64,000 nucleotides of DNA from an uncultured Methanobrevibacter sp. (GTDB lineage Archaea; Methanobacteriota; Methanobacteria; Methanobacteriales; Methanobacteriaceae): the NCBI GenBank assembly GCA_900318035.1, contig ONJC01000017.1:1-64000 (forward strand), written 5' to 3'. The notes under the pieces are model-generated. The model had not been told where the DNA came from, made no database searches, and was given only the letters and a program-made list of their open reading frames with translations. Below are positions 7,812 to 56,651 of this stretch, in pieces; the stretch's first letter is position 1; each line of letters begins with the position of its first letter. Made by a program: the position numbers and the translations under genes.

Positions 7812-8756
7812 ATGGATGCATCGATTATAATCCAAATTGTTTTATTATTAGTAGGATTTGTATTTTTAATAAAAGGTTCTGACTTTTTTGTAGATGGAGC
7901 GAGCAGTATTGCATCCCTATTAAAAATACCGACCATTATTGTTGGATTGACAATTGTGGCATTGGGAACAAGTGCTCCTGAAGCTGCCGTTTCAATTACA
8001 TCTTCCCTCACCGGAAGCAATGCAATGGCGGTCAGTAACGTTATCGGAAGTAATTTATTCAACATACTAATGGTCATCGGTATTGCTGCACTGCTCAGCG
8101 AATTGCTGATGGAAAAAAAAGTTCTTGATTTCGATCTGCCTTTCCTTGTTGGAATAACCCTATTATGGGCAGTTTTCATAATTATCGGATGGGACATTAC
8201 AAATATTGAAGGTATCATTTTACTCCTGATTATGGTTGCTTATATTGCCTATCTCGTTTACAGCACCCGAAAATCAGGCGGTGCAAAAGAAGTTGAAAAA
8301 CCTAAGTTCACCCTTCCAAAAAGTATCCTTTTCATACTTGTCGGACTTGCAGGAATTATACTTGGAGGAGACCTTGTTGTTGACAGCGCTTCAGCTATAG
8401 CAATTGCATTCGGAATGAGTGAAACACTGGTAGGTTTAACAATTGTGGCTATCGGTACCTCTTTGCCAGAACTTGTAACATCACTTACTGCTTTAAAGAA
8501 AGGGGAAAATCAGCTGGTTATAGGTAACGTGATTGGGTCAAACATCTTCAACATACTGTTCGTACTTGGTGCAAGTAGTGCAATAAGCTCAATACCTCTT
8601 GATTCAAGCATGCTCATAGATGTTTTATTCATGTTATTTGTCACAATATTGTGTTTCATATTTGGTAAAACTCAAGACAAATATGACAAAAAAGAAGGAG
8701 CTATTTTAGTCTTGCTGTTTATCGGATATATGGCATTCGCAATTATGAGAAATTGA
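7812..8756 (+). CDS. Calcium/sodium exchanger family (CaCA, YrbG-like) antiporter
   Basis: 314 residues with about ten hydrophobic segments arranged as two inverted halves. Each half has the alpha-repeat signature: ALGTSAPEAAVSITSSLTGS followed by NVIGSNLFNIL in the first, and AIGTSLPELVTSLTALKKG followed by NVIGSNIFNIL in the second. The acidic residues of GTSxPE are the ion ligands. The start ATG follows a GAGGAGGAAT ribosome binding site inside the end of the previous gene, so the two are translationally coupled. The ion specificity (calcium, sodium or proton) cannot be read from sequence. Its last 51 bp overlap the 3' end of the convergent tRNA thiolation gene. Confidence 0.9.
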   Translation: MDASIIIQIVLLLVGFVFLIKGSDFFVDGASSIASLLKIPTIIVGLTIVALGTSAPEAAVSITSSLTGSNAMAVSNVIGSNLFNILMVIGIAALLSELLMEKKVLDFDLPFLVGITLLWAVFIIIGWDITNIEGIILLLIMVAYIAYLVYSTRKSGGAKEVEKPKFTLPKSILFILVGLAGIILGGDLVVDSASAIAIAFGMSETLVGLTIVAIGTSLPELVTSLTALKKGENQLVIGNVIGSNIFNILFVLGASSAISSIPLDSSMLIDVLFMLFVTILCFIFGKTQDKYDKKEGAILVLLFIGYMAFAIMRN

Positions 8757-9590
8757 TTCTTTTAATTCACAGGCCTTGCAAATGTTTGACGAAGTTGGTT
8801 CACCACAGATTTCACATTCATTAAGGCTTGTGGAAATATCATTTTCAAAAGTCAATATCTTTTGAAATGATTCCATCACATTATTTTTAATTCCAGGATA
8901 TTTGTCTTCACTTACATTTAAAAATTCTTTTATTTTAGCCCGTAAAGACAAATGAGAATAAGGGCACTCATCAAGATGAATATCAATATTATTTAAAACT
9001 GCCCACATTCCAACCTCTTTTTCAGGAGTATTCCACAAAGGCTTAATTCTTGGAACCAGTTTTGGATGAATTACATCAAGTTCAGGGCCGAATTTGGAGA
9101 ACTTGATTGTATCTCCGCGCGCAAAACTCATTAAAAAGGATTGGATTTCATCATCTAAATTATGACCTGTAGCTATTTTTACAGCACCCAATTCATATGC
9201 AGTTTTATTTAATATGTTTCTTCTAAAAACACCGCATGGAATGCAAGCGCTTTTAAAATCCCGATAAATATCATCTAAAGCGAATCCTTCCTCTTGCCTA
9301 AATGATTTTTGAATGAGTTTGACGTCCAGTTCTTCGGCATTGTTAACTGCTGAATCAATACCATGCTGCCTGTAACCGTCAATGCCCTCATCAACACTGA
9401 TAGCAACCAAATCAAAGTCAAGGTAATTTTGATAATTTTTTAATGCATGAAGTGTTAAAACACTATCCTTACCCCCTGAAAGCGCAATGGCTATCAGTTC
9501 ACCTTCCTTGATTAATTCATAATCGGAAATTAAATTATTGATTCTTGTAAAAATCTTTTCATTGAATTCATCTTTGTTTAACTTAACCAT
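8706..9590 (-). CDS. tRNA 2-thiouridine synthesis ATPase, NcsA/Ctu1-TtcA family
   Basis: 294 residues. The PP-loop SGGKDS lies near residue 39; it adenylates the target base. CIPCG near residue 117 and ECPYS near residue 210 supply the three cysteines that bind the catalytic 4Fe-4S cluster. A C-terminal CEICG...CKAC zinc pair is present, but the N-terminal zinc finger found in most NcsA/Ctu1 proteins is missing, and an in-frame stop four codons upstream of the ATG excludes an extension. It therefore may be a TtcA-like or shortened variant. The last 17 codons overlap the convergent exchanger gene, so this C-terminal tail is probably poorly constrained. Which tRNA position is modified cannot be decided. 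Confidence 0.85.
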   Translation of the reverse strand: MVKLNKDEFNEKIFTRINNLISDYELIKEGELIAIALSGGKDSVLTLHALKNYQNYLDFDLVAISVDEGIDGYRQHGIDSAVNNAEELDVKLIQKSFRQEEGFALDDIYRDFKSACIPCGVFRRNILNKTAYELGAVKIATGHNLDDEIQSFLMSFARGDTIKFSKFGPELDVIHPKLVPRIKPLWNTPEKEVGMWAVLNNIDIHLDECPYSHLSLRAKIKEFLNVSEDKYPGIKNNVMESFQKILTFENDISTSLNECEICGEPTSSNICKACELKESISHNCECHISDKQQD

Positions 9591-32772: not shown

Positions 32773-32810
32773 AAAGAGAATTAATTTTCTCTTATTCTTT
32801 TTCTTTTTTG
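32773..32810 (+). terminator. Hairpin terminator between the adhesin and polB
   Basis: AAGAGAA (32774-32780) pairs with TTCTCTT (32787-32793), followed by ATTCTTTTTCTTTTTT. It overlaps the polB stop on the other strand, so it may serve mainly the rightward adhesin transcript. Confidence 0.5.
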
Positions 32811-34582
32811 TATTTTGCATAAAAACCGTCAGTATCGGCATATATTGCATAAAATCCGAATTCTTCAGCTTTTTTTATAGATGATTTAATATATTGCCTT
32901 CCCCATGATGTAATGGCCTTTGCACATTCGAAGGAGTACCATCTGAATCGAGGAAATCCATAAATTCCATACATGGTGTTTGCCAGTCTCTTGATTGCCT
33001 GCTGTTGTACATCCAAAGCCTTTTTTTGCTGCGGATTATCTGAAGCTTTCATTTCACGTTTTATTCTAAATCTTTCCTGTAAAATCTTGTCAATGACAGA
33101 TGGAATGAATCCTTTTGGAGATTTCATGAATTTAAGACCATGCTCGGGAGAAATATTATAATCATCCTCATTTTCAACATCCCCCAAAACCATGACATCA
33201 GGAGATATATTTTTTGAAATGATGATGCTGGGATACAGACTCCTGAAATCAAACTGAACAAGGTTTTCATGCAGTCCGGTTTCCGGTTCCCTCACATATC
33301 CTCCTTCGTTATCCTCGGCATTTGCACGGTCGGCAAAATTAGATCCCTGTTTATTTGGAACAACCTCCCCGTCAAAATAAGCCTGTTTTACTAAAAACCA
33401 TTCTGCCTGCTGACCAGTTGCCATACGGGAAACGTCAAATAAAGGTTGACCGATTATACGAGTAAGTTCTAAATTAAGAGGCAATGTTTGTTCGGCAATT
33501 TTTAAAGTGGATACCACGTCATCCAAAGAATAGTCAAACAGATTATCCAACTCTTCACCGCCATTGTCCCAGAACTCCCAAATCCGTTCTCCGGGAACAT
33601 CAATCTTTTCTTCTCCGAACAATTCATAATAAACCCTTTCTAAGGTATATCTCTCAAGAGACATGTAACGCCTCATGACCAAGTATAAATCTACGTGAAT
33701 CAAACCCTTAAAAGAAGCGGCGTTTGCATAACCTCTTCTGATATATTTGACATCAGATCCATCCATTCCAATATCCAAATCAACACCTAAAAGTTTAGCG
33801 CGGTCCTTAAGATATGGGAAATCAAAGTTATCTGAATTGTATCCTACAATGATGTCAATATTGTTTTCCTTGATAATCTTTACAAATTCCTGTATCATCT
33901 CGCGTTCTGAGGATACGTGATTTACAAAGTCTCCACAGCCTTCTGAATTTGTTTTTGTTGAAATTACCTGATTTATGCCGAAATTGCTTGCAACACCAAT
34001 CATAATTATTTCATCTTTCTCGGAGTTCGGCATGCCATGAGGATTTCTAACTTCCAAGTCAAAGCTCAGTATTCTGAAATTTTGAGGGTATTCAGGAACC
34101 CTTTTTAATTCATCAGTTAATTTAATGATAGTGATATCCTGTTTTTTGGAATCCAAATTTAAAAATGAATCTACCTCCTCACCGGTAGCTATAACTTCAG
34201 TCATTGGAATTACATCTCTGTCCATCAGATATCTTCTATAAAACGGAATGTCAAATTCCCTGATTTGAATGACATTTTCCAAATCCCTTAATGCATCCCT
34301 GTTTTTGGCAAGTTCCTGAGGATGTTTGAAAGTGACTTTCAGGAATTCAGTTTCAATCTGGAAATCCTTTTTTGTGATCTTTTCGACTCTAACAACATCC
34401 AAGTTATCTTCTATTTCATTTATGCACTCATCCAAATCATCAGACATGACATATAAGTAAGGTTCAAATGTGTCATCAAGTAAAACTATGTTTTTATCGC
34501 CATCCTTTGAAAATAATCTAATTACTGGCTTTTCTTCAAAAGTAACATAATCAATATCCAAAATAACAACATTTCTCTGCAT
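32792..34582 (-). CDS. polB: DNA polymerase family B, large N-terminal part of a split enzyme
   Basis: 596 residues. Order: N-terminal domain, 3'-5' exonuclease with Exo I SFDLEV (near 170), Exo [15 protein letters not shown] (near 248) and Exo III YSLDDV (near 350), then polymerase motif A FRSLYPS (near 445), motif [13 protein letters not shown] (near 540) and motif C YADTDG (near 587). It stops right after motif C, so the thumb is absent. In Methanothermobacter PolB is likewise made by two genes (MTH1208 and MTH208), so this is a lineage trait and not a local truncation. The small part is not in the window. A permease gene lies directly upstream. Confidence 0.9.
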
Positions 34583-39860: not shown

Positions 39861-41588
39861 TTAATTTTTGATAGTGATTACAGTACTGTTTAAACCTAAA
39901 ACTCTGGAGTAATCAATTTTATCTGCAATTTTATTTAAAACAGATATGTTATCGAATTCAAGACTTTCCTTTTCAATAACCGGATTGAATTCAACACCGG
40001 TATCCTTAATGGAAATCAGAATATTGTCTTCATCATTTCTAACAATAACATCTATTGTGTCAACGTTTTCATTATTGTTTATGATATTTACAAGCATTTC
40101 CTCAATAGCAAGACTTACTAAAGTCTCTGATTTATTACCCTTTAAGTAATCCTGAACGCCACGAGACAGATTAACGGCCTCTTCAACATCCCCTGAAATG
40201 GTATACTCGAAAACCTTTTCATCATCATTATGCTTATTGATGAAAAATCCAGTGTATTCACCGTTGGTCTTTTTATTAATGTATTTTGAATAAAAGAAGA
40301 TGAATAATATTGTCAACAATTCAGCCATTGCAAATGAAATCCAAATTCCATTTCCTCCAATTGCAGAAGATAGTATGACCGCAAGGGAAATTGGCAAAAC
40401 AAAACCTTCAAGCAATGAAATGATTGTGGATAACTGATTCTTTTGAATTGCCTGAGCATAAAATGTATACAGGAATGTGATTGCAGTTCCAACATAACTT
40501 ATTGCAAATATCCTTAATGCATTCAATACTACAGGAACATCTGCAGGATTCTTAACACTATATAGGAACAATAATGCTTGAGGATAAACAATCAATAAAA
40601 CAGACAACGCTAAACTTGAAGCCAAAACAATTTTTAAAGATCGTTTTACAATAAAATTAACACCTGAATAGTCTTCCTCCTTAAAGTAAACGGACACTAT
40701 TGGAGACATTGTCTGTGCTGTTCCAATCAGGAAAATGTATAATATAAATAAACTGTTATAACAAATACCGAATGCAACTACACCTGCTTTTCCCACATAA
40801 AGACCCACCAATATGTTTATTACAAGCAATTTTAAGGTTAAGTATAACTGAGTTGATGCTGATGAAAATCCAGAAGTTACAATCTTTTTAAGGAATTTGA
40901 AGAAAGAATTTGCTTTCAATCTGATAAATTCCAAAGTACGTTCTTTTTTAAAGAAGTAATATGAGATTAAAATGGATCCCACCAAATAACCTGTTGAAGT
41001 AGCCAATGCAGCACCTGAAAGCCCCATGCCGAAAACTTTAATATAAATTATGTCAAAACAGATATTGACAATGTTAGCAACCAGTATGGCTCTGAAAGGC
41101 AATGACGGAATACCATCTGCCCTTATAAAATAAGATAAACTCATCATATAACATAAAAAAGGCATTCCTATAATTAATGCTATGAAATAACTTGTAACAT
41201 CCGGAACCAGTTCAGGTTGGGAAATGCATAAAAACTGTGCAATATTTCCGGAAAACAACATGCCCAATATGGCAATCAACACTCCAATCGATATGAGTGA
41301 AATGATTGATACCGAAAAGTAACTATTACTTGTTTCATCATCAAATTCCGCTTTTGAAACAGAACAAAGCACACTGCCTCCCAATCCGATCATCCAGTAA
41401 ATAAGATTGACAAAAGTAATCACAGGAGCGACAATTTGGATTGGTGCAAGATTGCTCGCACCAATTAAAAAACTTACAATCAAACCATCTACAAACAGAC
41501 AAATATTGCCCGCCATTGATGTGAATAATGTTGGAAAGAAAAATTCCCCAAATTTATTTCTCAATAATTTATAATTTCTCTCATACAT
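39861..41588 (-). CDS. MATE-family multidrug/metabolite exporter fused to an RsbW-like ATPase domain
   Basis: 575 residues. Residues about 1-450 are a MATE-type transporter with about twelve membrane segments. Residues about 465-575 are a HATPase_c domain of the anti-sigma-factor/serine kinase type: the N-box EEMLVNIINNN and the nucleotide-binding DTGVEFNP are clear. The fusion implies that nucleotide binding or partner phosphorylation gates export, by inference. It starts 11 nt after the NRPS stop, with GAGGTTAAGG overlapping that stop, so translation is coupled. Export of the NRPS product is the obvious hypothesis. Confidence 0.85.
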   Translation of the reverse strand: MYERNYKLLRNKFGEFFFPTLFTSMAGNICLFVDGLIVSFLIGASNLAPIQIVAPVITFVNLIYWMIGLGGSVLCSVSKAEFDDETSNSYFSVSIISLISIGVLIAILGMLFSGNIAQFLCISQPELVPDVTSYFIALIIGMPFLCYMMSLSYFIRADGIPSLPFRAILVANIVNICFDIIYIKVFGMGLSGAALATSTGYLVGSILISYYFFKKERTLEFIRLKANSFFKFLKKIVTSGFSSASTQLYLTLKLLVINILVGLYVGKAGVVAFGICYNSLFILYIFLIGTAQTMSPIVSVYFKEEDYSGVNFIVKRSLKIVLASSLALSVLLIVYPQALLFLYSVKNPADVPVVLNALRIFAISYVGTAITFLYTFYAQAIQKNQLSTIISLLEGFVLPISLAVILSSAIGGNGIWISFAMAELLTILFIFFYSKYINKKTNGEYTGFFINKHNDDEKVFEYTISGDVEEAVNLSRGVQDYLKGNKSETLVSLAIEEMLVNIINNNENVDTIDVIVRNDEDNILISIKDTGVEFNPVIEKESLEFDNISVLNKIADKIDYSRVLGLNSTVITIKN

Positions 41589-41599
41589 CGCCTTAACCT

Positions 41600-44500
41600 C
41601 TAAATACTAAAGAAACCCACATCATCCAAATATTTAACAAATGTGTAAATGTATTCTTCAGATATGAATGGCCATTTAATGCCTAAACGATATAACGCCT
41701 GAATAGTGTAGGTATTGTCAACAGGCACCCAAATCTTTTTAACTTTTCCAGAACCTATTGAAGTGATAAGACCAGACACACCTTCCTGTTTTGATTTATC
41801 TGCAAGTGCCTCATCCAAAGCATTTTCATATTCCTCATCCTCAGCAGGTTCGATATCTAAACCTAAAGGTTTGATAATATCAATTATGTCTCCAAAGGAA
41901 ATGCTGTGATAATCGTATGGATGGAAAACAGTGCACTCCTTAGGAGTCTTTGAAAGGTTTATGATAGCTTTCGCAGTTATGTCAATCGGTGAAAATTCAA
42001 CATTATTCATCAGCATTGAATAAGGCATTTTTCCAATTGTTACAAATGCCTTTAACCTATTGATGAAACCATTTGTTTCAAAGTTGATCTGGAATTCAAT
42101 GTCAGAGCTTCTTGCCATTAAGTTTCCAACCCTCATGATTTTAACATCCAAATCATCATTGACAGCCGCTTCCAGAACGGCACGTTCTGCTAAGAACTTG
42201 GAGTTGAGATACTGATTGTCCACAGCCTGGCCAATGAACAAATCTTTTTCTGTGAATTTGACATCGACAGGAGGGTAATTGTTTATACTTTCACCGGCAA
42301 TACTGTATGTTGAAACCTGAACATATTTTGCATTTTTCATCTTTGCAAATTTAAGTCCGTTTATTACACCACCAAGGTTAATGTCCTCAATATCTGTTCC
42401 TGATGAGAAATGTTTTACATTTGCTGCACAGTTGACTATAGTGTCAATCTTTTCATTAATAAGATTTTCAAAGTCTTCAAAATTAGTAATGTCTCCTTCA
42501 ATGACATGTAATTTTTCTCCGAATAACTCACCATATTCATTGGAGAAGTAATAGAACAGCAATGATTTTAATCTTTCCTCACCGCTTAATACTTTATTAG
42601 CCCTGATAAAACAGTAAACTTCACCAGTTTCGTTTTCAAGTATTTCACGAAGCACATGTATTCCTAAAAATCCTGTTGCACCTGTAAGTAAAATATTTCC
42701 TAAGCTATCCTGAATTTCACCGCCAACAATATTTTCAAGATTGTTTTTCTGGAGTAGGTCATTGATTTGAGAATAGTCATATGACAATTCCTCTTTTTTC
42801 TCAAATGTTTCATCAGAAAGGATAAACTCTGATAACGCCCTTGGAGTCGGATTTGAGAAGACATCCCCATAACTTAAATTATAGTTCCTATTTAAAGCTT
42901 CCATAGTTATTTTAGTAACCAATAGTGATGTTCCACCTATTTCAAAGAAGCTGTCAGTGGCACTTACTTCATCAAGTCCTAGGATTTCTGCAAATAAGTT
43001 TGCAAAGAATGCTTCAATGTCATTTTCAGGAGCAACATATTCAGTGATTAGAACCGGTTCAGGCAAGTTTCTTAAGTCTGTTTTGCCGTTTACCGTTTGA
43101 GGCATTTCATCAAGCTCCATATAAACTGTCGGAACCATGTAATATACCAATTTTTCAGCAAGTGATGCCTTTAACTCATCAATGTCAATGGAATATCCGT
43201 TTTCTTCACGATTTTCATCTTTGTATTCATCATGAACTGTGAAATATGCGCACAAATGATCATTGCCTTTGATTTTTTTAACAACAACCGCAACGGATTT
43301 GATTCCCGGGAATTTTGAAAGACCAACTTCAATTTCGCCTATTTCAATTCTCAAACCTCTAAGTTTGATTTGGTTGTCCATTCTTCCGAATACATAATAG
43401 TCCCCATCTTCAGTGACCTTAACAAAATCTCCGGAATGATAGAATCTTACTCCATTAATGACATCATAGGCTTTGGCATTATTCTCAGGACGGTTTAGAT
43501 ATTCCCTTGAAACTCCTTTTCCTGCAATGAACAGTTCCCCAATGACATTTGGAGGCAGAGGATTGGAATCAAAATCCATAACCATTTCATGCACGTTGAA
43601 TAATTCTTTACCTATATGGATATCGGAGCTTTCCAGTAATTGACCGTTACAATAGACAGTTGTTTCGGTTGGTCCGTACATGTTAAATAATTTTCCGTTA
43701 GAGTTTTCGCTAAGCAATTCATATAATCTGGCGGAGAACGGTTCTCCAGCATGTATGTACACCTTAAATCCGTACATTGTTTCCTGCATTGCCTCGATTT
43801 CTAAATATTGGAGCAGACGTGAAGGTGTGGCAACGTAAACATTTGCTCCTGACCTGTTGATTAGGTCCATCATTTCAATTGGATCTTTGTATTCAGTATC
43901 ATTGGCAAATACCATTGGAACTCCGTTTAATAGAGATCCCATCAATTCTTGCTGGAATACATCGAAAGCTACAGTTGTGGTAGACAATACTTTATAATCC
44001 TCTTTTTCAAGATTGTGAACCAGTTCATAGGTACAGACATTTCTAGGGTCAGGATAAACAAAGTTTGCAATGTTTCCATGCTCCAATATTACCCCTTTTG
44101 GAAGTCCTGTGGAACCAGAAGTGTAAATAAGATATGCCATATTATTTGCATGCACATCAGGGTCAGGATTTGAGGTGTCCTCTTCCTCTAGCAATTCATT
44201 GACATCCAGTAAATTATCAGAATATTGGGACAGGTCAATTCCTTTTTTCTCAATTACATCATCCACAATAATGAATTTTGATTCACTGTCAGTTAGGACA
44301 TGCTCAATTCTTTCGGAAGGATATTCTGAATCAACAGGAATAAAAGCTGCACCGGACTTTAGGATACCGAACACTGATGCAATTACATTACTGTTTCTGT
44401 TCAATATAAACATTACCCTGTCTTCAAGTCCAACACCCTTTTTAATAAGGCTATGGGCGATTCTATTAGCTCTTTCATTTAACTCAGCATAAGTGAATTC

Positions 44501-47500
44501 ACCATCGTCAGCATATAAGACAACCCTATCAGGATGCAATTCAACCTGATTTTCGAATATCTTATTTAACCTTTCTTCCGGAATTTCATCATATTTAAAA
44601 TCATCAACACCCCAATCATCATTTTCAATGATTGAAATATCCTTCATCAAGGTATTTTCATCGAATGTTACGAATTTGTTTAAAACAATCCTGATGCAGT
44701 CAAGGAAAGTGTTGATTAACTTATCAGAGTATAACTGATCGTTGTATTCACAGAAAACTCTGTATTGGCCATCAACTTCAACCACATTTATGTTGATTTT
44801 GAATTTAAGCCCTTCGTAGTCAATGGATTGCCTTTCAACTTTCATTCCACCGATTTCAATGTCTTCAATGATTTTTCCGTGATATGCATATAATATTTCC
44901 GGAGTGATGTCGAATTCATTTGAAATTTCTGTTAGAGGATATGATGAATATGCCAATACATTCAGCCATTCCCCATTAATATATTCCAAGTATTCTTTAA
45001 GATTTGAATTAGAATTTAATTTTAATGCTAATGGCAATGTTTTAACCATCATAGCCAGTGTTTTTTGCTGATTTGGATTGAATCTACCATTAGTGATTGT
45101 TGCAATCAGTATATCCCTATTGAAAACAAACTTATTTAAAACAAATGAAGTTGCCGCCAGGAATAGATTATTCTGACTGAGATTTGATTCAAGACAGAAT
45201 TTGTCAATAAATTCCTTATCCAGGAAAATATCTTCCATTGCGGCATTGCCCTCTGATTCGTCACCGTTAATGTCCTGGGCAATCAATGTCGCATCATCAA
45301 ACTCTTTAATTTTATGGGAGAAGAATAATTTTGCCTCCTCATATAAAGATGACTGTTCCGTTTTAATTTCATTTAATGAATACTCGAATCCGTCAAGTTC
45401 TTCCAATTCGTAATCCTTTCCATCATAGATTTTTGAGATTTCATCAAACAGAATGTTTAAGGAAGTCCCATCCACAATAATGTGGTGGAAATCGGCAAGC
45501 AGCATTGAGTTTCCAACAATTTTAAATCTGAATAATGGACCTTCGTCAAGTTTAAATGGTTTTACAAACTCATCAATATTGGCTTCATCCACAACTTCAA
45601 TCAAATCATCGACTTTTAGACCGTCTCTTCTTTGCTGATATACTTCACCGTTTTCCATTGTGATAATTGTTTTTAGATAAGGGTGATTTTCAATAGCTGT
45701 TATGATTGATGATTTGAGTCTATCCACATCTATGCCTTCACTGAATTCCATTTTCTTTGGAAGATTGTATGCAGTGTTATCAGGATCCTTAATGCAGTCA
45801 AAGTAAACTCCAAGCTGATTTGAAGTTAAAGGATAGAACTCCTGAACATCAGATGCCTCATCATCGACAATTTTAATTTCAGATGCAATCTTCTCGATTG
45901 TTTTATATTTTAATATTTCTGTAACATTCAACTGTGCATTCAATTCCTTGTAAATTGCCGAAGTTAATTTGATTACGGAAAGAGAAGTCAGCCCTATATT
46001 GAACAGGTCAGTATTAACACCGAATTCGTCAACTCCCAAAATCTCAGACACTATATTGAACAATTCTTTTTCAATATCAGTTCTTGGCTTTATGAATTCA
46101 TCAACATCAATTTCAGGGTCAGGTAAATTTTTAAAGTCAGTTTTTCCATTAGGAGTTTTAGGGAATGATTCAAGTTGTGTGAAATATGACGGAACCATAT
46201 ATTCAGGAAGAGAATCAATCAAGTGCTGTTTCAGACCATCCATGTCAATATCACAGGATGCTGTGAAATAAGCACATAAATGTTCCACATTGTTGAGTTT
46301 TTTAACGACAACTTTTGAAAGGGAGACGTTTTCATAATTTGCAATTGCTCCCTCAATTTCAGATAGCTCTATTCTTAAACCTCTGAGTTTAATTTGAGTA
46401 TCATTACGTCCTGAAACATACAATTCCCCATGGGCATCTTTTTTACCTAAATCACCAGTATTATAATATGGAATATTATTTAATGTTAAAAAGACTTTTT
46501 GAGTTTGTTCAGGGTTGTTTAGGTATCCCCTTGCAATTCCGGCCCCTCCAACATAAATTTCACCAGCCACATAATCAGGCAGTTGATTTCCATCAATATC
46601 CATTATCTTATCAACTACATTGAGCATCTCCCAACCTGCAGTAACCTCATTGGAATCTATTAACTTATAATGTGAAGCGATTGTAACTTCTGTCGGACCA
46701 TATGAATTATAGATATCTGCCTTTGTGTATTTTGACAATCTGTCATACAATACAGGAGGGAATCCTTCACCACCAACAATAATCACATTACAATTTCCAA
46801 CGGCTTCCTGAATTTCTTCAATCTGCAGGTATTCAAGCAATCTGGTTGGTGTGGAACCGAACCCTTCAGCACCAGTTGCCTTGAATAATCCGACTAATTC
46901 CAAAGGATCGATGGCCTGTTCATCATTGGCAAATACTACCGGCAATCCGTTTAGGATTGTACCGAAGATTTCCCTTAAAAATACAATGAATGAGACTGTA
47001 GAAATTGATATAAATTTATTGCATTTGCGGTTTAATTCATAAATCGGAGCATTTTCCTCAACATTCGCCACATAGTTTGTAATTCCCCTGTGAGTAATCA
47101 TAACTCCTTTTGGTTTTCCGGTTGATCCGGAAGTGTAGATTAAGAAACATAAATTGTCAGGAGTCAAATCAACTTCAGGATTTGAATCATCGCTTTCAAG
47201 TAGCAATTCATCAACATCTATTCTGTTTTCACCATCATAGTCTATTTCTGAAGAGGTTATTACAAATCTAGAATCGCTGTCTTCCAGAATCTGATTGATT
47301 CTATTTTTTGGATAATTTGGATCAATTGGGATGAATGCTGCTCCAGCTTTAACAATACCCAAAACAGCGGCGATTAAATCACTGTTTCTTCTCATCATAA
47401 ACATTATTCTGTCTTCTATGTTGACCCCTCTTTTGATTAAACCATTAGCTATTTTATTTGCCCTTCTGTTTAGTTCATCATAAGTGAGTTCACCGTCTTC

Positions 47501-49417
47501 AGAATACAGTATTGTCTTTTGTGGGTTTTCAGCCGCAATATTTTCAAATACCTTATTTACAATTCCTTCGTTTGCTAGCTTAATTTCAAACCCTTCATCC
47601 AGTTCAATTTCACGTCTGATGGAAATATTCTTAAGCAATTCATCGCCAGAACAGAATCTGTCAAATAAAACATCCATGGAATCCAAAAAGGTTTCCATCA
47701 ATTCTTCTGAATAGAATGATTGATCGTAGCTGATGTTAATATTGCCGCTTTCAAAATTAAATACCAATTTGAAGTCTTTTGAATCGTATTCATCCACTAC
47801 AAACAATACTTCACTTTCAAAGTTTAATTTTTTGTTATTCAAAAGAGGATAATTCTTATATTCCCGGAAAGATTTCTTGAAATCCACCAGATATTGGCGG
47901 ACGGACATGTCTGTGTTAAAATGATACCCCGCAGCAACACGGTCATATGCTATTAAAATATCCTTTGAAAATGAAAATTTAGTCAAGTTATATAAAAATG
48001 CCGCAAGCAGTAATTTTTCTTTTGACATGTGATATTCGCTTGAGAGATACTTCAATTTTTCAATGTCAATTGGTTTGGATATTTTTACGAAATTTACTTC
48101 ATCTCCACTTACATCCGGAGAAATTGTAGTGGAATGGTCGAATGAATTAATTAGATTATTATAATAATTTTCTGCCTTGAAAAATTCAACTTCGTTGACA
48201 TTGTATTCACTGCATTTTTTAGATGAATCCTCGGTAACTTGCCTCAATAAATCTTTTAAACCGTCAGCAAGGAATTTTATTTCATTTTGATTGAAGCAGG
48301 ATTTATCATACTCTATGAATATGGATTGGAGACCTTTTTTATCTGAATAATTTTTATTTATTCTAAAGTGTAGCGGGAATTTGATATCTTTTTGTAGATT
48401 TAAGAATTTTGAGCCATAATCTGTGGAATTAGATACAATAGAAAATGTTGAAATACAATCCGGGTCAATGCCCATGTTTCTCAAATCTGTTGTGTATTCA
48501 CTGAACTGCAATTTTGCATGAGGCAAACCTTCTTTTAAAACACCTTTTGAATATGCAAGCAACTCATCGAATGTTAAATCTTCATCACAGGTTAATCTCA
48601 GAGGAATTGTATTAACGAACATTCCCAATGCGTCATCTTGATTGAAGTATCTTCCATGAACGGAAGTGTTCAATACAATATCCTTAAATGATTCATTGCC
48701 CTTTTTAGATTTTGAAAAGTACAGCAAATTAAGTGCCAATGAAATGATGAATGGAGAATAGTCAAAATCAGGACTCTGATCTAAAAGGATTTCAAAAAAT
48801 CCAAATTCAGAATCATCAAACGAATACCAGTCCTGACTATAGTCTTTTAAAGTATCTAACCAATATTTTTTATCCACTTTTGCATCATCAGAATTGAGAT
48901 ATTCCAATTCATCTTTAACATAAGTTTCATAGGAATAATCGATTGGAACATACTCCCCATCATTTTTAATGCAGTCAATATATCTGTCAATTTCACGTGG
49001 AACAATTGAGTAAAGTGATGTCCCATCCAGTAAAATATGTTGCACAACACCAATAAGCACAGCAGATTCGTTTGTTTTTAAAACCGCCCATTTATATAAT
49101 GGAGCATCAAAAACATCATCAAACGGTTTATCCAAATACTCTTTTATAAATCCATCGATGTTTTCATCTGAAACATCAAATGAATCGACAACAACATCAT
49201 TATCTACAAAATATTGTTTGAATTCACCATTTTCCTCATATTTAATTTGTAAATTTAAGTATTCCTTAGAAATAGATTCTATAGCCAATTTTACATTTTC
49301 AAAATCCTCCAAATCATAATCCTTTCTAAATTTAAGATAAAAAGAATCATTTTGAGGATTATTAATCTCTGAAAACAATAACATTTTCTGAGCCGAAGAC
49401 AAGTTAAATAACTTCAT
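41600..49417 (-). CDS. Dimodular non-ribosomal peptide synthetase with terminal reductase
   Basis: 2605 residues from the ATG preceded by GGTGAT. Approximate order: C1 (5-410, QHILLDG at 128, catalytic His kept), an orphan condensation C-lobe (415-605), A1 (612-1100, TSGSTGKPKG near 762), PCP1 (1110-1185, Ser of GLTSLS), C2 (1195-1600, HHIIVDG near 1313), A2 (1612-2115, TSGSTGLPKG near 1767), PCP2 (2130-2200, GGTSLL) and thioester reductase (2240-2600, TGATGFLG near 2246 and YLNSK). Reductase release gives an aldehyde or alcohol. A1 has Ile811 where amino-acid-activating domains have Asp. Methanobrevibacter ruminantium also carries NRPS genes, thought to derive from bacteria. The product is unknown; no phosphopantetheinyl transferase gene is beside it. 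Confidence 0.93.
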   Translation of the reverse strand: MKLFNLSSAQKMLLFSEINNPQNDSFYLKFRKDYDLEDFENVKLAIESISKEYLNLQIKYEENGEFKQYFVDNDVVVDSFDVSDENIDGFIKEYLDKPFDDVFDAPLYKWAVLKTNESAVLIGVVQHILLDGTSLYSIVPREIDRYIDCIKNDGEYVPIDYSYETYVKDELEYLNSDDAKVDKKYWLDTLKDYSQDWYSFDDSEFGFFEILLDQSPDFDYSPFIISLALNLLYFSKSKKGNESFKDIVLNTSVHGRYFNQDDALGMFVNTIPLRLTCDEDLTFDELLAYSKGVLKEGLPHAKLQFSEYTTDLRNMGIDPDCISTFSIVSNSTDYGSKFLNLQKDIKFPLHFRINKNYSDKKGLQSIFIEYDKSCFNQNEIKFLADGLKDLLRQVTEDSSKKCSEYNVNEVEFFKAENYYNNLINSFDHSTTISPDVSGDEVNFVKISKPIDIEKLKYLSSEYHMSKEKLLLAAFLYNLTKFSFSKDILIAYDRVAAGYHFNTDMSVRQYLVDFKKSFREYKNYPLLNNKKLNFESEVLFVVDEYDSKDFKLVFNFESGNINISYDQSFYSEELMETFLDSMDVLFDRFCSGDELLKNISIRREIELDEGFEIKLANEGIVNKVFENIAAENPQKTILYSEDGELTYDELNRRANKIANGLIKRGVNIEDRIMFMMRRNSDLIAAVLGIVKAGAAFIPIDPNYPKNRINQILEDSDSRFVITSSEIDYDGENRIDVDELLLESDDSNPEVDLTPDNLCFLIYTSGSTGKPKGVMITHRGITNYVANVEENAPIYELNRKCNKFISISTVSFIVFLREIFGTILNGLPVVFANDEQAIDPLELVGLFKATGAEGFGSTPTRLLEYLQIEEIQEAVGNCNVIIVGGEGFPPVLYDRLSKYTKADIYNSYGPTEVTIASHYKLIDSNEVTAGWEMLNVVDKIMDIDGNQLPDYVAGEIYVGGAGIARGYLNNPEQTQKVFLTLNNIPYYNTGDLGKKDAHGELYVSGRNDTQIKLRGLRIELSEIEGAIANYENVSLSKVVVKKLNNVEHLCAYFTASCDIDMDGLKQHLIDSLPEYMVPSYFTQLESFPKTPNGKTDFKNLPDPEIDVDEFIKPRTDIEKELFNIVSEILGVDEFGVNTDLFNIGLTSLSVIKLTSAIYKELNAQLNVTEILKYKTIEKIASEIKIVDDEASDVQEFYPLTSNQLGVYFDCIKDPDNTAYNLPKKMEFSEGIDVDRLKSSIITAIENHPYLKTIITMENGEVYQQRRDGLKVDDLIEVVDEANIDEFVKPFKLDEGPLFRFKIVGNSMLLADFHHIIVDGTSLNILFDEISKIYDGKDYELEELDGFEYSLNEIKTEQSSLYEEAKLFFSHKIKEFDDATLIAQDINGDESEGNAAMEDIFLDKEFIDKFCLESNLSQNNLFLAATSFVLNKFVFNRDILIATITNGRFNPNQQKTLAMMVKTLPLALKLNSNSNLKEYLEYINGEWLNVLAYSSYPLTEISNEFDITPEILYAYHGKIIEDIEIGGMKVERQSIDYEGLKFKININVVEVDGQYRVFCEYNDQLYSDKLINTFLDCIRIVLNKFVTFDENTLMKDISIIENDDWGVDDFKYDEIPEERLNKIFENQVELHPDRVVLYADDGEFTYAELNERANRIAHSLIKKGVGLEDRVMFILNRNSNVIASVFGILKSGAAFIPVDSEYPSERIEHVLTDSESKFIIVDDVIEKKGIDLSQYSDNLLDVNELLEEEDTSNPDPDVHANNMAYLIYTSGSTGLPKGVILEHGNIANFVYPDPRNVCTYELVHNLEKEDYKVLSTTTVAFDVFQQELMGSLLNGVPMVFANDTEYKDPIEMMDLINRSGANVYVATPSRLLQYLEIEAMQETMYGFKVYIHAGEPFSARLYELLSENSNGKLFNMYGPTETTVYCNGQLLESSDIHIGKELFNVHEMVMDFDSNPLPPNVIGELFIAGKGVSREYLNRPENNAKAYDVINGVRFYHSGDFVKVTEDGDYYVFGRMDNQIKLRGLRIEIGEIEVGLSKFPGIKSVAVVVKKIKGNDHLCAYFTVHDEYKDENREENGYSIDIDELKASLAEKLVYYMVPTVYMELDEMPQTVNGKTDLRNLPEPVLITEYVAPENDIEAFFANLFAEILGLDEVSATDSFFEIGGTSLLVTKITMEALNRNYNLSYGDVFSNPTPRALSEFILSDETFEKKEELSYDYSQINDLLQKNNLENIVGGEIQDSLGNILLTGATGFLGIHVLREILENETGEVYCFIRANKVLSGEERLKSLLFYYFSNEYGELFGEKLHVIEGDITNFEDFENLINEKIDTIVNCAANVKHFSSGTDIEDINLGGVINGLKFAKMKNAKYVQVSTYSIAGESINNYPPVDVKFTEKDLFIGQAVDNQYLNSKFLAERAVLEAAVNDDLDVKIMRVGNLMARSSDIEFQINFETNGFINRLKAFVTIGKMPYSMLMNNVEFSPIDITAKAIINLSKTPKECTVFHPYDYHSISFGDIIDIIKPLGLDIEPAEDEEYENALDEALADKSKQEGVSGLITSIGSGKVKKIWVPVDNTYTIQALYRLGIKWPFISEEYIYTFVKYLDDVGFFSI

Positions 49418-50255: not shown

Positions 50256-53200
50256 ATGATAAAAAATAAATATTTTCTTATAATAATTCTAATATTATTA
50301 TTGTTTATTATCCCAGTTACGAGCGCAAACAATAATAATACTGATTTAAGTGAAATTAACATCGAAAATACGATTTCTGACAATAATATTCTAAATGAAA
50401 AGATTGGCAACACTGTAGACATCTTATCTGTTGACACCCCTCATAAAGAATTGACAGATGATGACCTTAAAAATGATTCAAGCATTTACTTGAAAAATGG
50501 AGAATATGACTATAAACAGGAATATGAACACCGAAACATTACATTTATTGGTGAAGACACATCAAAAACTATCATCAACGGTAACGGAAGCACCATTTAT
50601 ATAACAGAATTTGTATCGTTCAGCAATCTTACCCTGAAAAACATCAAAATCCATGCTCCTGAAAACATGACCTTATCTAATGTCATTTTCAAAGATTTCA
50701 AATATAACTACTCTGAAGACTTCCCAACAGGAATGATTTACAACGGATACCATGACAGCAGCAATATCAATCTGATGAATTGTACATTTTACAATAACAC
50801 CATTTTAGATGCAGGCATCTTAGAAGCATATTACAGCACAGTGAATATTAAAGACTCAAAAATCATTGACAACGAAAATGTCGAATCTGATGAATATATA
50901 ACTTATGGAATAATTTATGTATCCGAATCAAAGCTCAACATTTCAAACTGCGAATTTATCAACAACAAAGTAGGATCTGTTTCTGGAGTGTTGACTTGCG
51001 AAAAATCCCCAATCAATATAGCAGATTCCAACTTTGTGAACAATACCGCAAAAAGCACCCCCTGTATTCGTGTAAATAAGGCTGATGCTTCAATTGATGG
51101 CTGTGAATTCATTAACAATACCGGCACATCCAGTTATGGATCCGTCTATATGAGTAGAGGAAATCTTAACATATCCAATTGTGAATTTATAAACAATTCT
51201 GCCGGGAAAAGGGGAGGATCAATATATTATACAACTTACAGCCTTTTAAATTTCACTGTTGACAATTGTACCTTTTATGATTCAAAAGCAAATCAAACTG
51301 GAGGATCCATTTATATCTCTTGTGGAAACATCAATATCAACAATTGTAAGTTTTATAATTCCCGAGCCAATAATGGAGGTGCAATATTATTTGAAAATTT
51401 ATTTAAAGATCCTTCTCAAATAAAAATCACCTCAACTGAGTTTATCAATTGCTCTTCAACATCAAGAGGCGGAGCAATATACTGTAGTGATTCAGATTCA
51501 TTCAATGGATTTAATTTATCAATAGTTAATGCTAAATCAAAATATGGAGCAGGAATATTAATCAACAATTGTAATTCAACATTCAATAATCTGACTATAA
51601 CAAATTCATCAAGCCTCATTGGAGCTTATTTCCACCAAAAGGGTAATTTAAAGTTAATAAACTCATTAATCTCCTCAAATACTGGTAATTTTGGATCTGC
51701 AATATATCTAACAGATATGTATAACATACTAATTGAAAACAATACCTTCAAGAACAATAATGCCAACGGTTATGGCAGCGCAATTTATATCGTTTCCAAA
51801 TCAACTCAAGATTTTTCAAAAAATAATTATGAGAATAATTCAGCGAAAGAAAATAAAACCGTATATGTCAATTACATTTCATATAATCAGGATAATCTAA
51901 TAATTACCAGCAGAAATTACACATTTTTCATAGGCAATTATACCGATGCAGATTACATCCCCTCATATTACAATTTAGCTGACTTAAATCAGACCACTTC
52001 CGTTAAGGACCAGATGGATGAAGGTAACTGTTGGGCTTTTGCAGCAATTGGAGGATTAGAGTCAAATGTTTTAAAAGCACATAATTTATTACTGGACCTT
52101 TCAGAAAACAACATGAAAAACATTGCAAGTAACACATCACCATTCGGCTGGATTTATGAACCAAATTATGGAGGATATCCATATACACACATAGGTTACC
52201 TTGTAAGCTGGTTAGGTCCCGTTTTGGAAGAGGATGATCCGTATATAGAGATTAGTCGATATTCAAATTTGTTTGATAGTGTATTGCACGTCCAGAATAT
52301 TTTAAACATTAAAAGAGATAAATTCACAGATAATGATGAAATCAAAAAAGCGATAATGAAATATGGAGGAGTAGTATCCCCTATCTATTCAACAAATTCT
52401 GTTAAGCAGTATTACAATGAATCCATTTATTCCAATCATGAAATTGTTATTGTAGGTTGGAATGACACAATGGAAATACCTAATGCTCCCGGACTGGGCG
52501 CATGGATTTGTAAAAACAGTTGGGGCTCTGAGTGGGGAGAAGACGGCTATTTCTATGTTTCATATTATGATACCTCCTGCCCTTCAAAATCAGACTTTTT
52601 AGGCGCATCCGTAATCATATTCAACAGTACAATAAAATACGAGAAAAATTATCAGTACGACCAGGCACAAACTGATTTCATCAATACCCCAAATGATACA
52701 GTATGGTATAAAAACAGATTCAATGCAACCAACAATGAACTTTTAGCAGGAGTATCCACATATTTCAAGGAAGATAGCTTTTGGAATTTATCAGTTTATG
52801 TCAACAATGCTTTAAAATTAAGTAAATCAGGATTTTCAAAATCTGGATACTGGACAATTGAACTCGGAAAGGTCATCCCATTGGAAATTGGTGATGTATT
52901 TGAAATAGAATTCCAAATCAATCACAATAATGCCAGCGTCCCTATCTGTGAAGAGACAATATACGTCAATAAATTTTACAGCGAAAACACCTCATTTATA
53001 AGCTTTGACGGTGAAAACTGGACTGACCTCTATGATTATAACTGGAATAACGAAGGAGAAAACGCCTTACAGGTAGCATGCATCAAAGCATTCACAGTGC
53101 TTAACAATGAAACATTCACAATGCTTACCCATCAAATCGAAAACCATGAAAATTATCTTGAATTAACAAATGATTATACATATACAGATCTCGATGAAAA

Positions 53201-55115
53201 ATTTGTAAATGGAATCATAATCAGCAAAGACAATTTCACAATTGACGGACAAGGACACACCATCGACGGAGCGGGACTTGCAAGAATATTCAATATTACA
53301 GCAAACAATGTCACCCTGAAAAATATCAATTTCATTAACGGTAATGCATCTTATGGAGGAGCCATATTTTGGGATAGTGGAACTGAAGGAAAAATAATAG
53401 AATCCACATTTAAAAACAACAACGTAATAGGAAGAGGAGGCGCAATAGAAATAGTCAATGCAAGCAACTGCGAAATCAAAGACTGCACATTCAACAACAA
53501 CAATGCAAACAGATCCGCAGGAGCAATATACGTAAATAACTGCACATACATCACCATAGACAATTCCAAATTCGAAAACAACCAAGTAAAACACTCAGGA
53601 GGAGCAATCTACTTCAACGGCAACAACGGAATAATAACCAACTCCAACTTCACAAACAACAAAGCCCGCTACAATGGCGCAACATGCATAAACGGTGAAA
53701 ACGGAAACGTAATCAACTGCAAATTCACCAACAATACCGCAACAGAAAGCGCAGGCGCATTAGGATGGGAAAGAAAAGGTAACGGAAACATTGAAAAATG
53801 CACATTCATAAATAACACCGCACCAAAAGGAGGCGCAATATACCAAAACAGCGCAACCAACGTTACCATAACAAATTCAATATTCGAAAGCAACACAGCA
53901 AACGAAGACGGAGGAGCCATATACTGGGACAACGCAACCAACGGAAAAATTATTGGTTCAACATTTAAAAACAACAACGTAATAGGAAGAGGAGGCGCAA
54001 TAGAAATAGTCAATGCAAGCAACTGCGAAATCAAAGACTGCGCATTTGACAACAACAGTGCAACATATGGTGGAGCAATACACAATGACGGTGAAACAAA
54101 TATAAACAACAGTAAATTTACTGAAAATAATGCAACTGAAGGTAAATCAATTAAAACCGAAAGAGATATGACAATCAGCAATTCTGAATTCATCAACAAT
54201 GGTGAAAACTGCATTGATCTTAACCCAGATGCCAAAATAACTTTAAATAACGTTACAAGTGATGTTCCATTGGTAAACGATACAATAAGCATGGAAATTC
54301 TTGAGGCTAAAGATGTTGTTTACGGCACTGACGTCAACATTAAAGTTCAGGTAAACAGCAGCGCCATATCCCCATTGAACGGCGGTAAAGTTGTTGTTAA
54401 TGTTAATGGTGTTGAATATGATGAAGATGTAAAAGATGGAATCGCAACACTTGTTATTCCTAAATTAAATGCTGGAACTTACAATGCAAATGTTACATAC
54501 ATTGACAATAACATTTCAAGAGCAGAAATTCCTGTTAATTTCACTGTAAATAAAAAAGACATTGCAATTAATGCAAAAAATGCAGCATACATCATCAACT
54601 ACGGTGGAACCTACAAAGTGAGTTTCACAAATGTAACTGACAATGATAGAGTAACATTTACCTTTAACGGCAAAAAAATTGGAACTTTCACCATCAAAAA
54701 CAAAGCTGCTTCAATAAAATTAACTGCAAAAATCCTAAAAACTGCAAAAGCCGGTAAAAAGAAAATGGTTATTAAAATTGGAAATAAAAACTACAGTCCA
54801 ATAAGTAAAACCGTTAAAATTACCATCAAGAAGGAGAAAACAAAAATAACCGCTAAAGCAAAAACATTCAAAAGAACTGTAAAAACCAAAAAATACACAA
54901 TAACCTTAAAAAACAGCAAAAAAGCAATGAAAAAAGCAAAAGTTTACTTAAAAGTTAAAGGTAAAACATACAAAGCCAAAACCAACAGCAAAGGTAAGGC
55001 AACATTTAAAATTACCAAACTAACTAAAAAAGGAACTTACAAAGCATTTATTAAATATAAAGGAAACAGTTACTACAAAAAAGCAACCAAAAACATTAAA
55101 ATTAAAATCAAGTAG
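50256..55115 (+). CDS. Adhesin-like protein with an embedded papain-like cysteine protease
   Basis: 1619 residues. Order: signal peptide (1-24), beta-helix repeats (about 60-560), a C1A papain-like peptidase (about 570-790), a linked beta-rich module (about 800-950, lectin-like in related proteins), a second beta-helix (about 985-1330), Ig-like modules and the basic C-terminal module shared with the protein at 11514. The catalytic set is complete: Gln586, Cys592 in GNCWAFA, His728 in SNHEIVIVGW and Asn754 in CKNSWGSEWG. It is exported, so it should act outside the cell on host, microbial or its own proteins; substrate unknown. An 81-bp exact repeat lies in the second helix. Confidence 0.9.
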   Translation: MIKNKYFLIIILILLLFIIPVTSANNNNTDLSEINIENTISDNNILNEKIGNTVDILSVDTPHKELTDDDLKNDSSIYLKNGEYDYKQEYEHRNITFIGEDTSKTIINGNGSTIYITEFVSFSNLTLKNIKIHAPENMTLSNVIFKDFKYNYSEDFPTGMIYNGYHDSSNINLMNCTFYNNTILDAGILEAYYSTVNIKDSKIIDNENVESDEYITYGIIYVSESKLNISNCEFINNKVGSVSGVLTCEKSPINIADSNFVNNTAKSTPCIRVNKADASIDGCEFINNTGTSSYGSVYMSRGNLNISNCEFINNSAGKRGGSIYYTTYSLLNFTVDNCTFYDSKANQTGGSIYISCGNININNCKFYNSRANNGGAILFENLFKDPSQIKITSTEFINCSSTSRGGAIYCSDSDSFNGFNLSIVNAKSKYGAGILINNCNSTFNNLTITNSSSLIGAYFHQKGNLKLINSLISSNTGNFGSAIYLTDMYNILIENNTFKNNNANGYGSAIYIVSKSTQDFSKNNYENNSAKENKTVYVNYISYNQDNLIITSRNYTFFIGNYTDADYIPSYYNLADLNQTTSVKDQMDEGNCWAFAAIGGLESNVLKAHNLLLDLSENNMKNIASNTSPFGWIYEPNYGGYPYTHIGYLVSWLGPVLEEDDPYIEISRYSNLFDSVLHVQNILNIKRDKFTDNDEIKKAIMKYGGVVSPIYSTNSVKQYYNESIYSNHEIVIVGWNDTMEIPNAPGLGAWICKNSWGSEWGEDGYFYVSYYDTSCPSKSDFLGASVIIFNSTIKYEKNYQYDQAQTDFINTPNDTVWYKNRFNATNNELLAGVSTYFKEDSFWNLSVYVNNALKLSKSGFSKSGYWTIELGKVIPLEIGDVFEIEFQINHNNASVPICEETIYVNKFYSENTSFISFDGENWTDLYDYNWNNEGENALQVACIKAFTVLNNETFTMLTHQIENHENYLELTNDYTYTDLDEKFVNGIIISKDNFTIDGQGHTIDGAGLARIFNITANNVTLKNINFINGNASYGGAIFWDSGTEGKIIESTFKNNNVIGRGGAIEIVNASNCEIKDCTFNNNNANRSAGAIYVNNCTYITIDNSKFENNQVKHSGGAIYFNGNNGIITNSNFTNNKARYNGATCINGENGNVINCKFTNNTATESAGALGWERKGNGNIEKCTFINNTAPKGGAIYQNSATNVTITNSIFESNTANEDGGAIYWDNATNGKIIGSTFKNNNVIGRGGAIEIVNASNCEIKDCAFDNNSATYGGAIHNDGETNINNSKFTENNATEGKSIKTERDMTISNSEFINNGENCIDLNPDAKITLNNVTSDVPLVNDTISMEILEAKDVVYGTDVNIKVQVNSSAISPLNGGKVVVNVNGVEYDEDVKDGIATLVIPKLNAGTYNANVTYIDNNISRAEIPVNFTVNKKDIAINAKNAAYIINYGGTYKVSFTNVTDNDRVTFTFNGKKIGTFTIKNKAASIKLTAKILKTAKAGKKKMVIKIGNKNYSPISKTVKITIKKEKTKITAKAKTFKRTVKTKKYTITLKNSKKAMKKAKVYLKVKGKTYKAKTNSKGKATFKITKLTKKGTYKAFIKYKGNSYYKKATKNIKIKIK
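53406..53486 (+). repeat. 81-bp exact direct repeat, copy 1
   Basis: Identical over 81 bp to 53961-54041 in the same gene and frame. It encodes a whole beta-helix turn including NNNVIGRGGAIEIVNASN. Identity at third codon positions points to recent duplication or gene conversion, since other turns of this helix differ strongly. Confidence 0.85.
53961..54041 (+). repeat. 81-bp exact direct repeat, copy 2
   Basis: Second copy of the repeat at 53406-53486, 555 bp away (185 codons), so recombination between copies would remove or add an exact number of codons. Confidence 0.85.
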
Positions 55116-55491: not shown

Positions 55492-56651
55492 TCACAATTT
55501 GTTTTTAATATCATCCAATTGCTGTTCCAGGACATCGACTTTATCTTTATAGTCTTTTAATTCTTTTTCTGATTCCTCTGCCCTATTTTTATACTCCTTT
55601 AATTCCCGGGATATTTCTATTATCCTATCAGTGTTTATGTCAATTATATCACTATTGACTGAGATTTTATCAGCATTTGCATCAACAGCTTTTTTTAACT
55701 CCTCCCCAGTTATTTCCTCTTTTTTCTCACCTAAAAACATGGTGAATAGCAACATTCCAAGAACGGCTGCAAATGTCATTGGAGCATAAACGGCATTAGC
55801 TATAAATAGCCCTTCCGGCCAAGGAGTCAACACACATACAATCCACATCTCAAATCCGCAGAACAAAAACATCAGAAGTGCCGCTTTGTATGGCTTTAAG
55901 AATTCACCATTGTTCCACCTATTAATGAGGCTTCCAATAATACCTGCCAGTATTGTTGCAACACAACATGCCAAAGCAGTAGGGCCTCCCATGTTGTATC
56001 TACAAATTCCAGATATTAATCCTACAGGTATTCCAACATATGGCCCTCCAAGCAATGCAGATATCATTACAATCAATCCTCTTGAATTGGCAGGAACCCC
56101 ATAACATCCATGGTGAAATATGATGCGAGAACTCCAAGAATGCTGCAAATTATAACCTGGCCGATTATAGTTTTAAGAGAACGGTCACCTTTAACTAATG
56201 ATTTAAAGCTTTTCGATTTAGTGGCCACATATGTTATAATCAAAACCACAGACAGCATTTTAAACATTTCTATAAATGGAGCCCATAATGATTCCCCTTG
56301 ATTGGATCTGTTAAAATAAGAAATAGTAAGACTCAACAAACCAGTAATGATTAGATAACCTATTTCATAAACTGATCCATGCTCCCGTACGTCATGTTTC
56401 GCAAGCCTAGACGAAATAAAACCAAAAATGATAATTGCTGAGAGGATTGTAAAAACGTCATGGACGGCTGACGGATTTATCTTATTAACACTAACCATAT
56501 AACCAAATAAATTAAAATAGAAACAAATATTGAAAAATAATAATATCATAAACAATATTACAATTTCCTTATCTTCCATGAGTTTGTTTTTAATGTCAGC
56601 TAACATATTATCTAAAAATAAAACATTTAATAAAATGTAGAAATTTTTCAA
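55492..56651 (-). pseudogene. LytS-type five-transmembrane receptor, frame broken at a G run
   Basis: Two overlapping frames make one protein. The first (56651 down to 56073) has an N-terminal membrane part and ends abnormally after MDVMG. The second (open to 55492) continues with VPANSRGLIVMISALLGGPYVGIPVGLISGICRY, the core signature of the 5TM-LYT receptor family, more membrane segments and a C-terminal coiled coil (about 70 residues). One additional G in the GGGG run near 56097-56100 joins them into about 386 residues. The protein would have no kinase, GGDEF or other output domain, only the coiled coil. LytS relatives sense cell wall state or metabolites. The start may be internal, near 56606. 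Confidence 0.65.

Follow-up and report, generated by a model that had tools for sequence, protein, structure and literature searches.

What does a methanogen make with a nonribosomal peptide synthetase (NRPS) that ends in a reductase, and how is export of the product controlled? The question is raised by a minus-strand gene at 41600-49417 of a 64,000-nucleotide stretch of DNA from an uncultured Methanobrevibacter. This whole stretch, hereafter the window, belongs to contig 15 in an assembly of 2.29 Mb and 88% completeness. Methanobrevibacter is among the main rumen methanogen groups, and according to the accessible parts of the M. ruminantium M1 report, enzymes of this class, with a MATE gene beside them, were already described in the genus in 2010 (Leahy 2010, PMC2812497). 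No named nonribosomal product of a methanogen appears in the accessible portions of the literature examined. A compound that shapes Methanobrevibacter interactions would be of applied interest. We propose that the synthetase is intact, joins a fixed non-alpha-amino starter to one amino acid, releases the product reductively and hands it to a MATE exporter under the control of a partner switch. We put the probability of this reading at roughly one in two.

The synthetase and its domains

The open reading frame, counted from a TTG codon, runs uninterrupted from 49429 to 41600. The ATG at 49417 is likely the better start because GGTGATT lies just upstream and the resulting protein, 2605 aa, matches many relatives in length (2601-2606 aa in many homologues among the best 120 listed). 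Homologues are abundant, with E <= 1e-30 for 5051 of the 7994 candidates scored in the protein search, and a synthetase 96% identical to this one, with the same downstream neighbours, is encoded by one uncultured Methanobrevibacter. The GC content of the gene (0.344, against 0.335 for the window) gives no signal of recent transfer. In two protein searches the 120 best rows were archaeal wherever an organism was named, most rows carrying no name, and no bacterial sister could be placed from them.

The preliminary description had read the protein as C-(C-lobe)-A-PCP-C-A-PCP-reductase, and each element of that layout proved right. Pfam matches AMP-binding and PP-binding in two stretches each, Condensation in three, and also NAD_binding_4; together with the motif scan this identifies a modular NRPS whose condensation (C), adenylation (A) and carrier (T) domains carry their catalytic motifs in a single protein. 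Motif residues below are counted from the TTG start, and all domains lie on the minus strand. C1 (48197-49405) is a complete N-terminal condensation domain. Its motif, QHILLDG at residue 130, has Gln in place of the first His and retains the second His and DG; xHxxxDG is present in 104 of 107 relatives with the order C-c-A-T-C-A-T-R. Between C1 and A1 lies half a condensation domain of about 214 residues, the C-lobe only (47555-48196), which Pfam did not call and hhalign detected. A profile of this lobe built from relatives matches the C-lobe of C2 with probability 100 (E 8.9e-44) and that of C1 with only 65.1, and in relatives that lack C1 the half domain is N-terminal. There follow A1 (46085-47554; TSGSTGKPKG at 766), T1 (45875-46084; FNIGLTSL at 1143, with the Ser of GLTSL at 45983-45985), C2 (44630-45862; HHIIVDG at 1315), A2 (43070-44572; TSGSTGLPKG at 1770) and T2 (42815-43012; FEIGGTSL at 2162, with the Ser of GGTSL at 42926-42928).

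The protein ends in R (41603-42712), an NAD(P)H-dependent thioester reductase with TGATGFLG at 2249 and YLNSK at 2407, which instance the TGxxGxxG and YxxxK motifs of such enzymes; 106 of the 107 relatives inspected contain the first. The best PDB match of T2-R is an NRPS PCP-R didomain (6vtj/6vtz, E 1.2e-107), followed by AusA (4f6l, E 3.9e-54). The terminal reductase claimed earlier is thus borne out, and release as an aldehyde or alcohol, by two- or four-electron reduction, is well supported by homology.

A synthetase of this kind depends on a phosphopantetheinyl transferase (PPTase), and the preliminary description had named the absence of any such gene from the genome as grounds for abandoning its reading. 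The genome holds one, a single Sfp-type gene of the ACPS family at 8595-9233 of locus L040 (52.6 bits against a cut-off of 25), whose NCBIfam matches are HetI first and AusB second. It contains the family motifs GVDVE and WVLKE. Of the family's 138 genomes, 78 encode condensation domains and 85 a PPTase; 73 genomes have both, 5 have condensation domains only and 12 have a PPTase only. At two further loci of the same genome, on contigs 12 and 8, we observed fragments of at least one additional multi-module NRPS, cut by contig ends.

An invariant starter pocket and a variable second pocket

What does each module load? We read the pocket codes at ten positions, with numbering from GrsA positions, and took a census of 212 distinct proteins longer than 1800 aa from our searches, 144 of which have the window's domain order. 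Asp235 anchors the alpha-amine in amino-acid A domains. It is present in A2 (code DVQVIAMVYK) and is replaced in A1 (code IVRGIGSIAK) by Ile, in a local alignment free of gaps. All 144 relatives share the A1 code IVRG[IV]GS[IV]AK, including Ile235 and Arg239, and the same 144 show 19 different A2 codes. These relatives are largely close kin (73 groups at 90%, 12 at 70% and 6 at 60% identity); the A1 code type is kept in every identity group and A2 differs across all six of the 60% groups. Because A1 lacks Asp235 and its code is invariant while that of A2 varies, the starter is likely a fixed acid and not a normal alpha-amino acid. The residue loaded by A1 probably carries no free alpha-amine at the usual position, and Arg239 in the pocket suggests that it is perhaps acidic, with a second acidic group. 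The invariant code narrows the search for the product to one starter combined with variable second residues.

A non-alpha-amino starter would in turn argue against a simple dipeptide aldehyde or a pyrazinone. The preliminary description had drawn an analogy with gut-bacterial dipeptide aldehydes, which inhibit proteases or cyclise to pyrazinones; its reductive-release architecture stands, and the cyclisation is weakened, since a pyrazinone-forming synthetase is expected to have Asp235 in its first A domain and here that position is Ile, in the window as in all 144 relatives. Could A1 nonetheless take an alpha-amino acid without Asp235, so that the enzyme makes an ordinary dipeptide aldehyde that becomes a pyrazinone or dihydropyrazinone, as an AusA-like synthetase would? 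The two modules with a terminal reductase, the match of R to AusA in the PDB, AusA as best NCBIfam match and AusB as runner-up for the PPTase all point that way. However, a score of 1003 bits against the NCBIfam cut-off of 2500 means that the protein is not AusA, Ile235 and Arg239, shared by all 144 relatives, do not fit, and an N-terminal C1 with a conserved motif suggests an acylated first residue whose cyclisation would be blocked. We consider this explanation unlikely.

If the starter is a fixed acid, is it further acylated? A1 might load a plain carboxylic acid without a nucleophile and leave C1 idle, the product then being only an acyl-amino-aldehyde. Some relatives without C1 do keep the half C domain and A1 (c-A-T-C-A-T-R, 12 of 212 proteins, of which at least P0100, at 2025 aa, looks like a cut fragment). 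Conservation of the C1 motif speaks against an idle C1, as does the similar pocket IARS-GS-AK found in chain-accepting internal modules of three- and four-module relatives, though in a separate clade. We regard the plain acid as somewhat unlikely. The clades come from an A-domain tree that is archaeal only (54 rows from 21 hand-picked proteins), in which the A1 domains form one clade with support 97/91 and the internal IARS-GS-AK domains another. The separate clades led us to reject the shared Ile235 and Arg239 as proof of a common substrate; the internal domains give only a hint that such pockets can serve modules that accept a chain. In some relatives of other domain order the first A domain itself differs, as in P0079 with its DVQV code. 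We also considered proline for A2, whose code agrees at 7 of 10 positions with the GrsB proline code, DVQLIAHVVK, and set it aside because the resemblance is too weak.

The exporter and its C-terminal domain

The preliminary description had assigned export to a neighbouring MATE protein, and the adjacency holds: the MATE gene begins 11 bases past the NRPS stop and lies directly downstream of the NRPS in 25 of 28 loci. Its core, residues 1-440 (40269-41588, minus strand), scores 87.1 bits with PF01554 (cut-off 24.9) and 118.8 with TIGR00797, under the 147.4 cut-off of that model. Its best Foldseek matches are MATE structures (E 8.1e-14 to 6fhz).

The remainder of the protein (39864-40268, minus strand) is a C-terminal domain with a predicted fold like that of RsbW/SpoIIAB, as found in bacterial partner-switch proteins. 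Its N box and G1 box are nearly invariant, and the glycine-rich ATP lid (G2 box) is present in 0 of 110 distinct tails, with an alignment gap at the lid; this count omits three loci where the gene is cut by the fetched region (L047), the tail is broken (L058) or a contig ends (L059). Because the lid is absent, we class the tail as RsbW-like and not as a kinase. The tail scores 19.7 bits with Pfam HATPase_c_2, under the cut-off of 27.4, and its sequence profile, searched against the PDB with a limit of E <= 1, retrieved no RsbW, only a histidine kinase (E 0.46) among rows at chance level; as a control, a profile of the free kinases did retrieve RsbW (E 0.0062). Model confidence drops to 54-65 around the lost lid. 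MATE topology in general would place such a tail on the cytoplasmic side; a hydropathy scan of the protein gave 23 overlapping segments that do not separate the helices.

How widespread is the tail? We counted 556 tail-bearing proteins, the best 120 of which were listed, and found no match in plasmids. Tails occur in 83 of 151 genomes of the phylum, all 83 in the same family, in a set that adds only 13 genomes to the family's 138, so restriction to the family is not established. Strong tails (E <= 1e-20) are found in 62 of the 138 family genomes, 59 of which have condensation domains, 60 SpoIIE and 59 a PPTase. The 19 of 78 condensation-domain genomes without a strong tail may hold other NRPS types. 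Two loci hint at decay. In one relative (L058, 13818-15278, plus strand) a frameshift breaks the MATE tail, and NRPS, STAS and SpoIIE remain. In another genome (G093, contig 6, ~55.8-57.0 kb) a PPTase adjoins a tail-bearing frame of 229 codons with no condensation domains detected, perhaps an eroded cluster.

A partner-switch cassette and its likely target

The tail and the regulatory genes around it go beyond the preliminary description. In 10 of 28 loci PPTase, SpoIIE, kinase and STAS genes lie on one strand, followed by the NRPS and MATE genes in divergent orientation, and in two other genera (L048 and L049) SpoIIE, kinase, STAS, MATE, NRPS and PPTase all lie on one strand. The full cassette is not contiguous in the other 18 loci, several of which are cut by contig ends. 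Since Fisher values for gene co-occurrence are inflated by shared ancestry, we place weight on gene order in diverged genera. The window's own genome encodes a SpoIIE phosphatase, a STAS protein with a phosphorylatable Ser (in SSAGLR) and a free HATPase kinase with an intact lid. The genes for STAS, kinase and PPTase share an operon on contig 17, and a pair of SpoIIE genes is found on contig 33. These switch genes are not adjacent to the NRPS, and the functional link in this genome rests on relatives. The second SpoIIE (L041, 9383-11317, minus strand) has GGAFYD where its neighbour has GGDFYD, which may mean that one phosphatase of the tandem pair lacks a metal ligand. Upstream of the NRPS, the window holds no convincing STAS remnant; the best candidate (E 0.052) was rejected.

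In bacteria, RsbW-like proteins hold either a sigma factor or an unphosphorylated STAS protein. What would they hold in a methanogen? We propose that the target of the switch is the exporter instead of a sigma factor. The Sfp-type PPTase of contig 17 would prime T1 and T2; A1 would load an acid without an alpha-amine in the usual place, possibly one with a second acidic group; C1 may attach an acyl group to it, drawn from an acyl-CoA provided in trans; C2 would join the starter to the amino acid of A2, whose proline-like character is suggested only by the similarity of its code; and R, strongly by homology, would reduce the thioester to an aldehyde or alcohol. The membrane SpoIIE phosphatase would meanwhile dephosphorylate the STAS protein, which when free could bind the lid-less tail of the MATE pump and change its state, until STAS is phosphorylated again by the free RsbW-like kinase, which returns the switch to its starting state. 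Loss of the lid fits a receiver that would be unable by itself to phosphorylate and release its partner. In its fullest form, the idea is that methanogens rewired a bacterial sporulation-type partner switch to a new output, so that STAS, after dephosphorylation by a SpoIIE sensor in the membrane and by binding a lid-less RsbW fused to MATE, gates secretion of a peptide aldehyde with an invariant non-alpha-amino starter; we offer this form tentatively, with less confidence than the outline given at the start.

The switch might instead act elsewhere. SpoIIE, kinase and STAS could control transcription or some other target, with the MATE tail left over as a structural relic or acting as some unrelated regulator, for instance a nucleotide sensor; regulated NRPS expression was indeed proposed for M. 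ruminantium, as far as the accessible text goes (Leahy 2010, PMC2812497). Loss of the ATP lid and the presence of SpoIIE in 12 genomes without condensation domains favour this explanation. Against it, the near-invariance of the N and G1 boxes is unlike a relic, the tail-bearing MATE adjoins NRPS and switch genes in several genera, and archaea are not known to have a sigma factor for RsbW to bind. On balance, control of transcription seems somewhat unlikely. Alternatively, the lid-less tail could be a constitutive dock that holds unphosphorylated STAS near SpoIIE, the pump being a sensor or scaffold that regulates the synthetase and not the target of the switch. Gene content and fold evidence are identical for this arrangement and for gated export, and the first 200 residues of both SpoIIE proteins of the genome are hydrophobic-looking. 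The cassette, however, shows no separate effector to carry a signal to the synthetase, and we consider such a dock improbable. If export is switch-controlled, as we favour, the compound's function and inducing signal could be traced through the phosphatase sensor. Moreover, the cassette offers a reason why archaea without sigma factors keep homologues of SpoIIE, RsbW and RsbV.

Other genes in the window

Divergent from the NRPS, at 50256-55115 (plus strand), lies a gene for an adhesin-like protein of beta-helix type into which a papain-family protease domain (GNCWAFA) is inserted. Peptide aldehydes often inhibit papain-type proteases, and we weighed the adhesin as a cluster member; it is not conserved beside the NRPS in other loci and was rejected. 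At 55492-56651 (minus strand) two overlapping open reading frames, one with a 5TMR-LYT membrane-sensor domain, are possibly a single gene split by a frameshift. Another gene, at 32792-34582 (minus strand), encodes a 596-aa family-B DNA polymerase whose sequence stops near YADTDGFY; it seems to resemble the larger part of the polymerase that is split in Methanobacteriales.

Comparison with known systems

The closest described system is mru0068 of M. ruminantium M1, which, in the accessible parts of its report, has two C-A-T modules and a MATE gene beside it, a terminal domain called a reductase in the legend of figure S8 and a thioesterase in the main text, and two serine phosphatases and an anti-sigma antagonist in its vicinity; a PPTase belongs to a third cluster, which also contains anti-sigma genes and an acyltransferase (Leahy 2010, PMC2812497). 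Compared by description only, the window's NRPS is likewise two-module, reductase-ended and MATE-adjacent. It differs in that its regulatory genes sit on other contigs, and the half C domain, the Asp235-less A1 code and the RsbW-like MATE tail seen here are absent from that description as far as it was accessible. A search of one open library for Methanobrevibacter with anti-sigma antagonist returned nothing beyond this report, and a search of the same scope turned up no publication that connects MATE proteins to HATPase or RsbW together with anti-sigma or STAS. A survey, seen in part, counted 687 NRPS clusters from 125 archaeal genomes, found them only in Methanobrevibacter among 85 near-complete rumen Euryarchaeota genomes, and suggested a horizontal origin for them (PMC8241843). 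Its account is at survey level and, in the accessible text, does not include the starter code, the MATE tail or the switch cassette. The partial text on a wetwood isolate places an NRPS beside a PPTase (PMC5467289). Neither the invariant starter code without Asp235 nor the RsbW-like tail of the pump is thus described in the accessible portions of the literature examined.

Among structures, the best match of the reductase (6vtj/6vtz) is titled only 'Non-ribosomal peptide synthetase'. We take it to be the M. ruminantium PCP-R didomain from another NRPS, mru_0351, to which a 2021 study by Deshpande is reportedly tied. AusA of Staphylococcus aureus shares homologous A-T-C-A-T-R domains (profile positions 338-2370 of 2373), including a homologous R, and AusB is weakly similar to the PPTase of this genome. 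In contrast to AusA, the window's synthetase belongs to an archaeal clade, has an extra complete C1 and an A1 without Asp235, and scores 1003.3 with NF047350, well short of the equivalog cut-off of 2500.

The regulatory genes have their counterparts in SpoIIAA/AB/E and RsbV/W/U. A SpoIIE-type phosphatase, a STAS protein with SSAGLR and a lid-bearing kinase are all present in this genome, and the MATE tail has the predicted fold of the RsbW/SpoIIAB kinases. Two differences set the methanogen system apart from these switches: its fused RsbW-like copy lacks the ATP lid, and its predicted output is a membrane exporter rather than a sigma factor.
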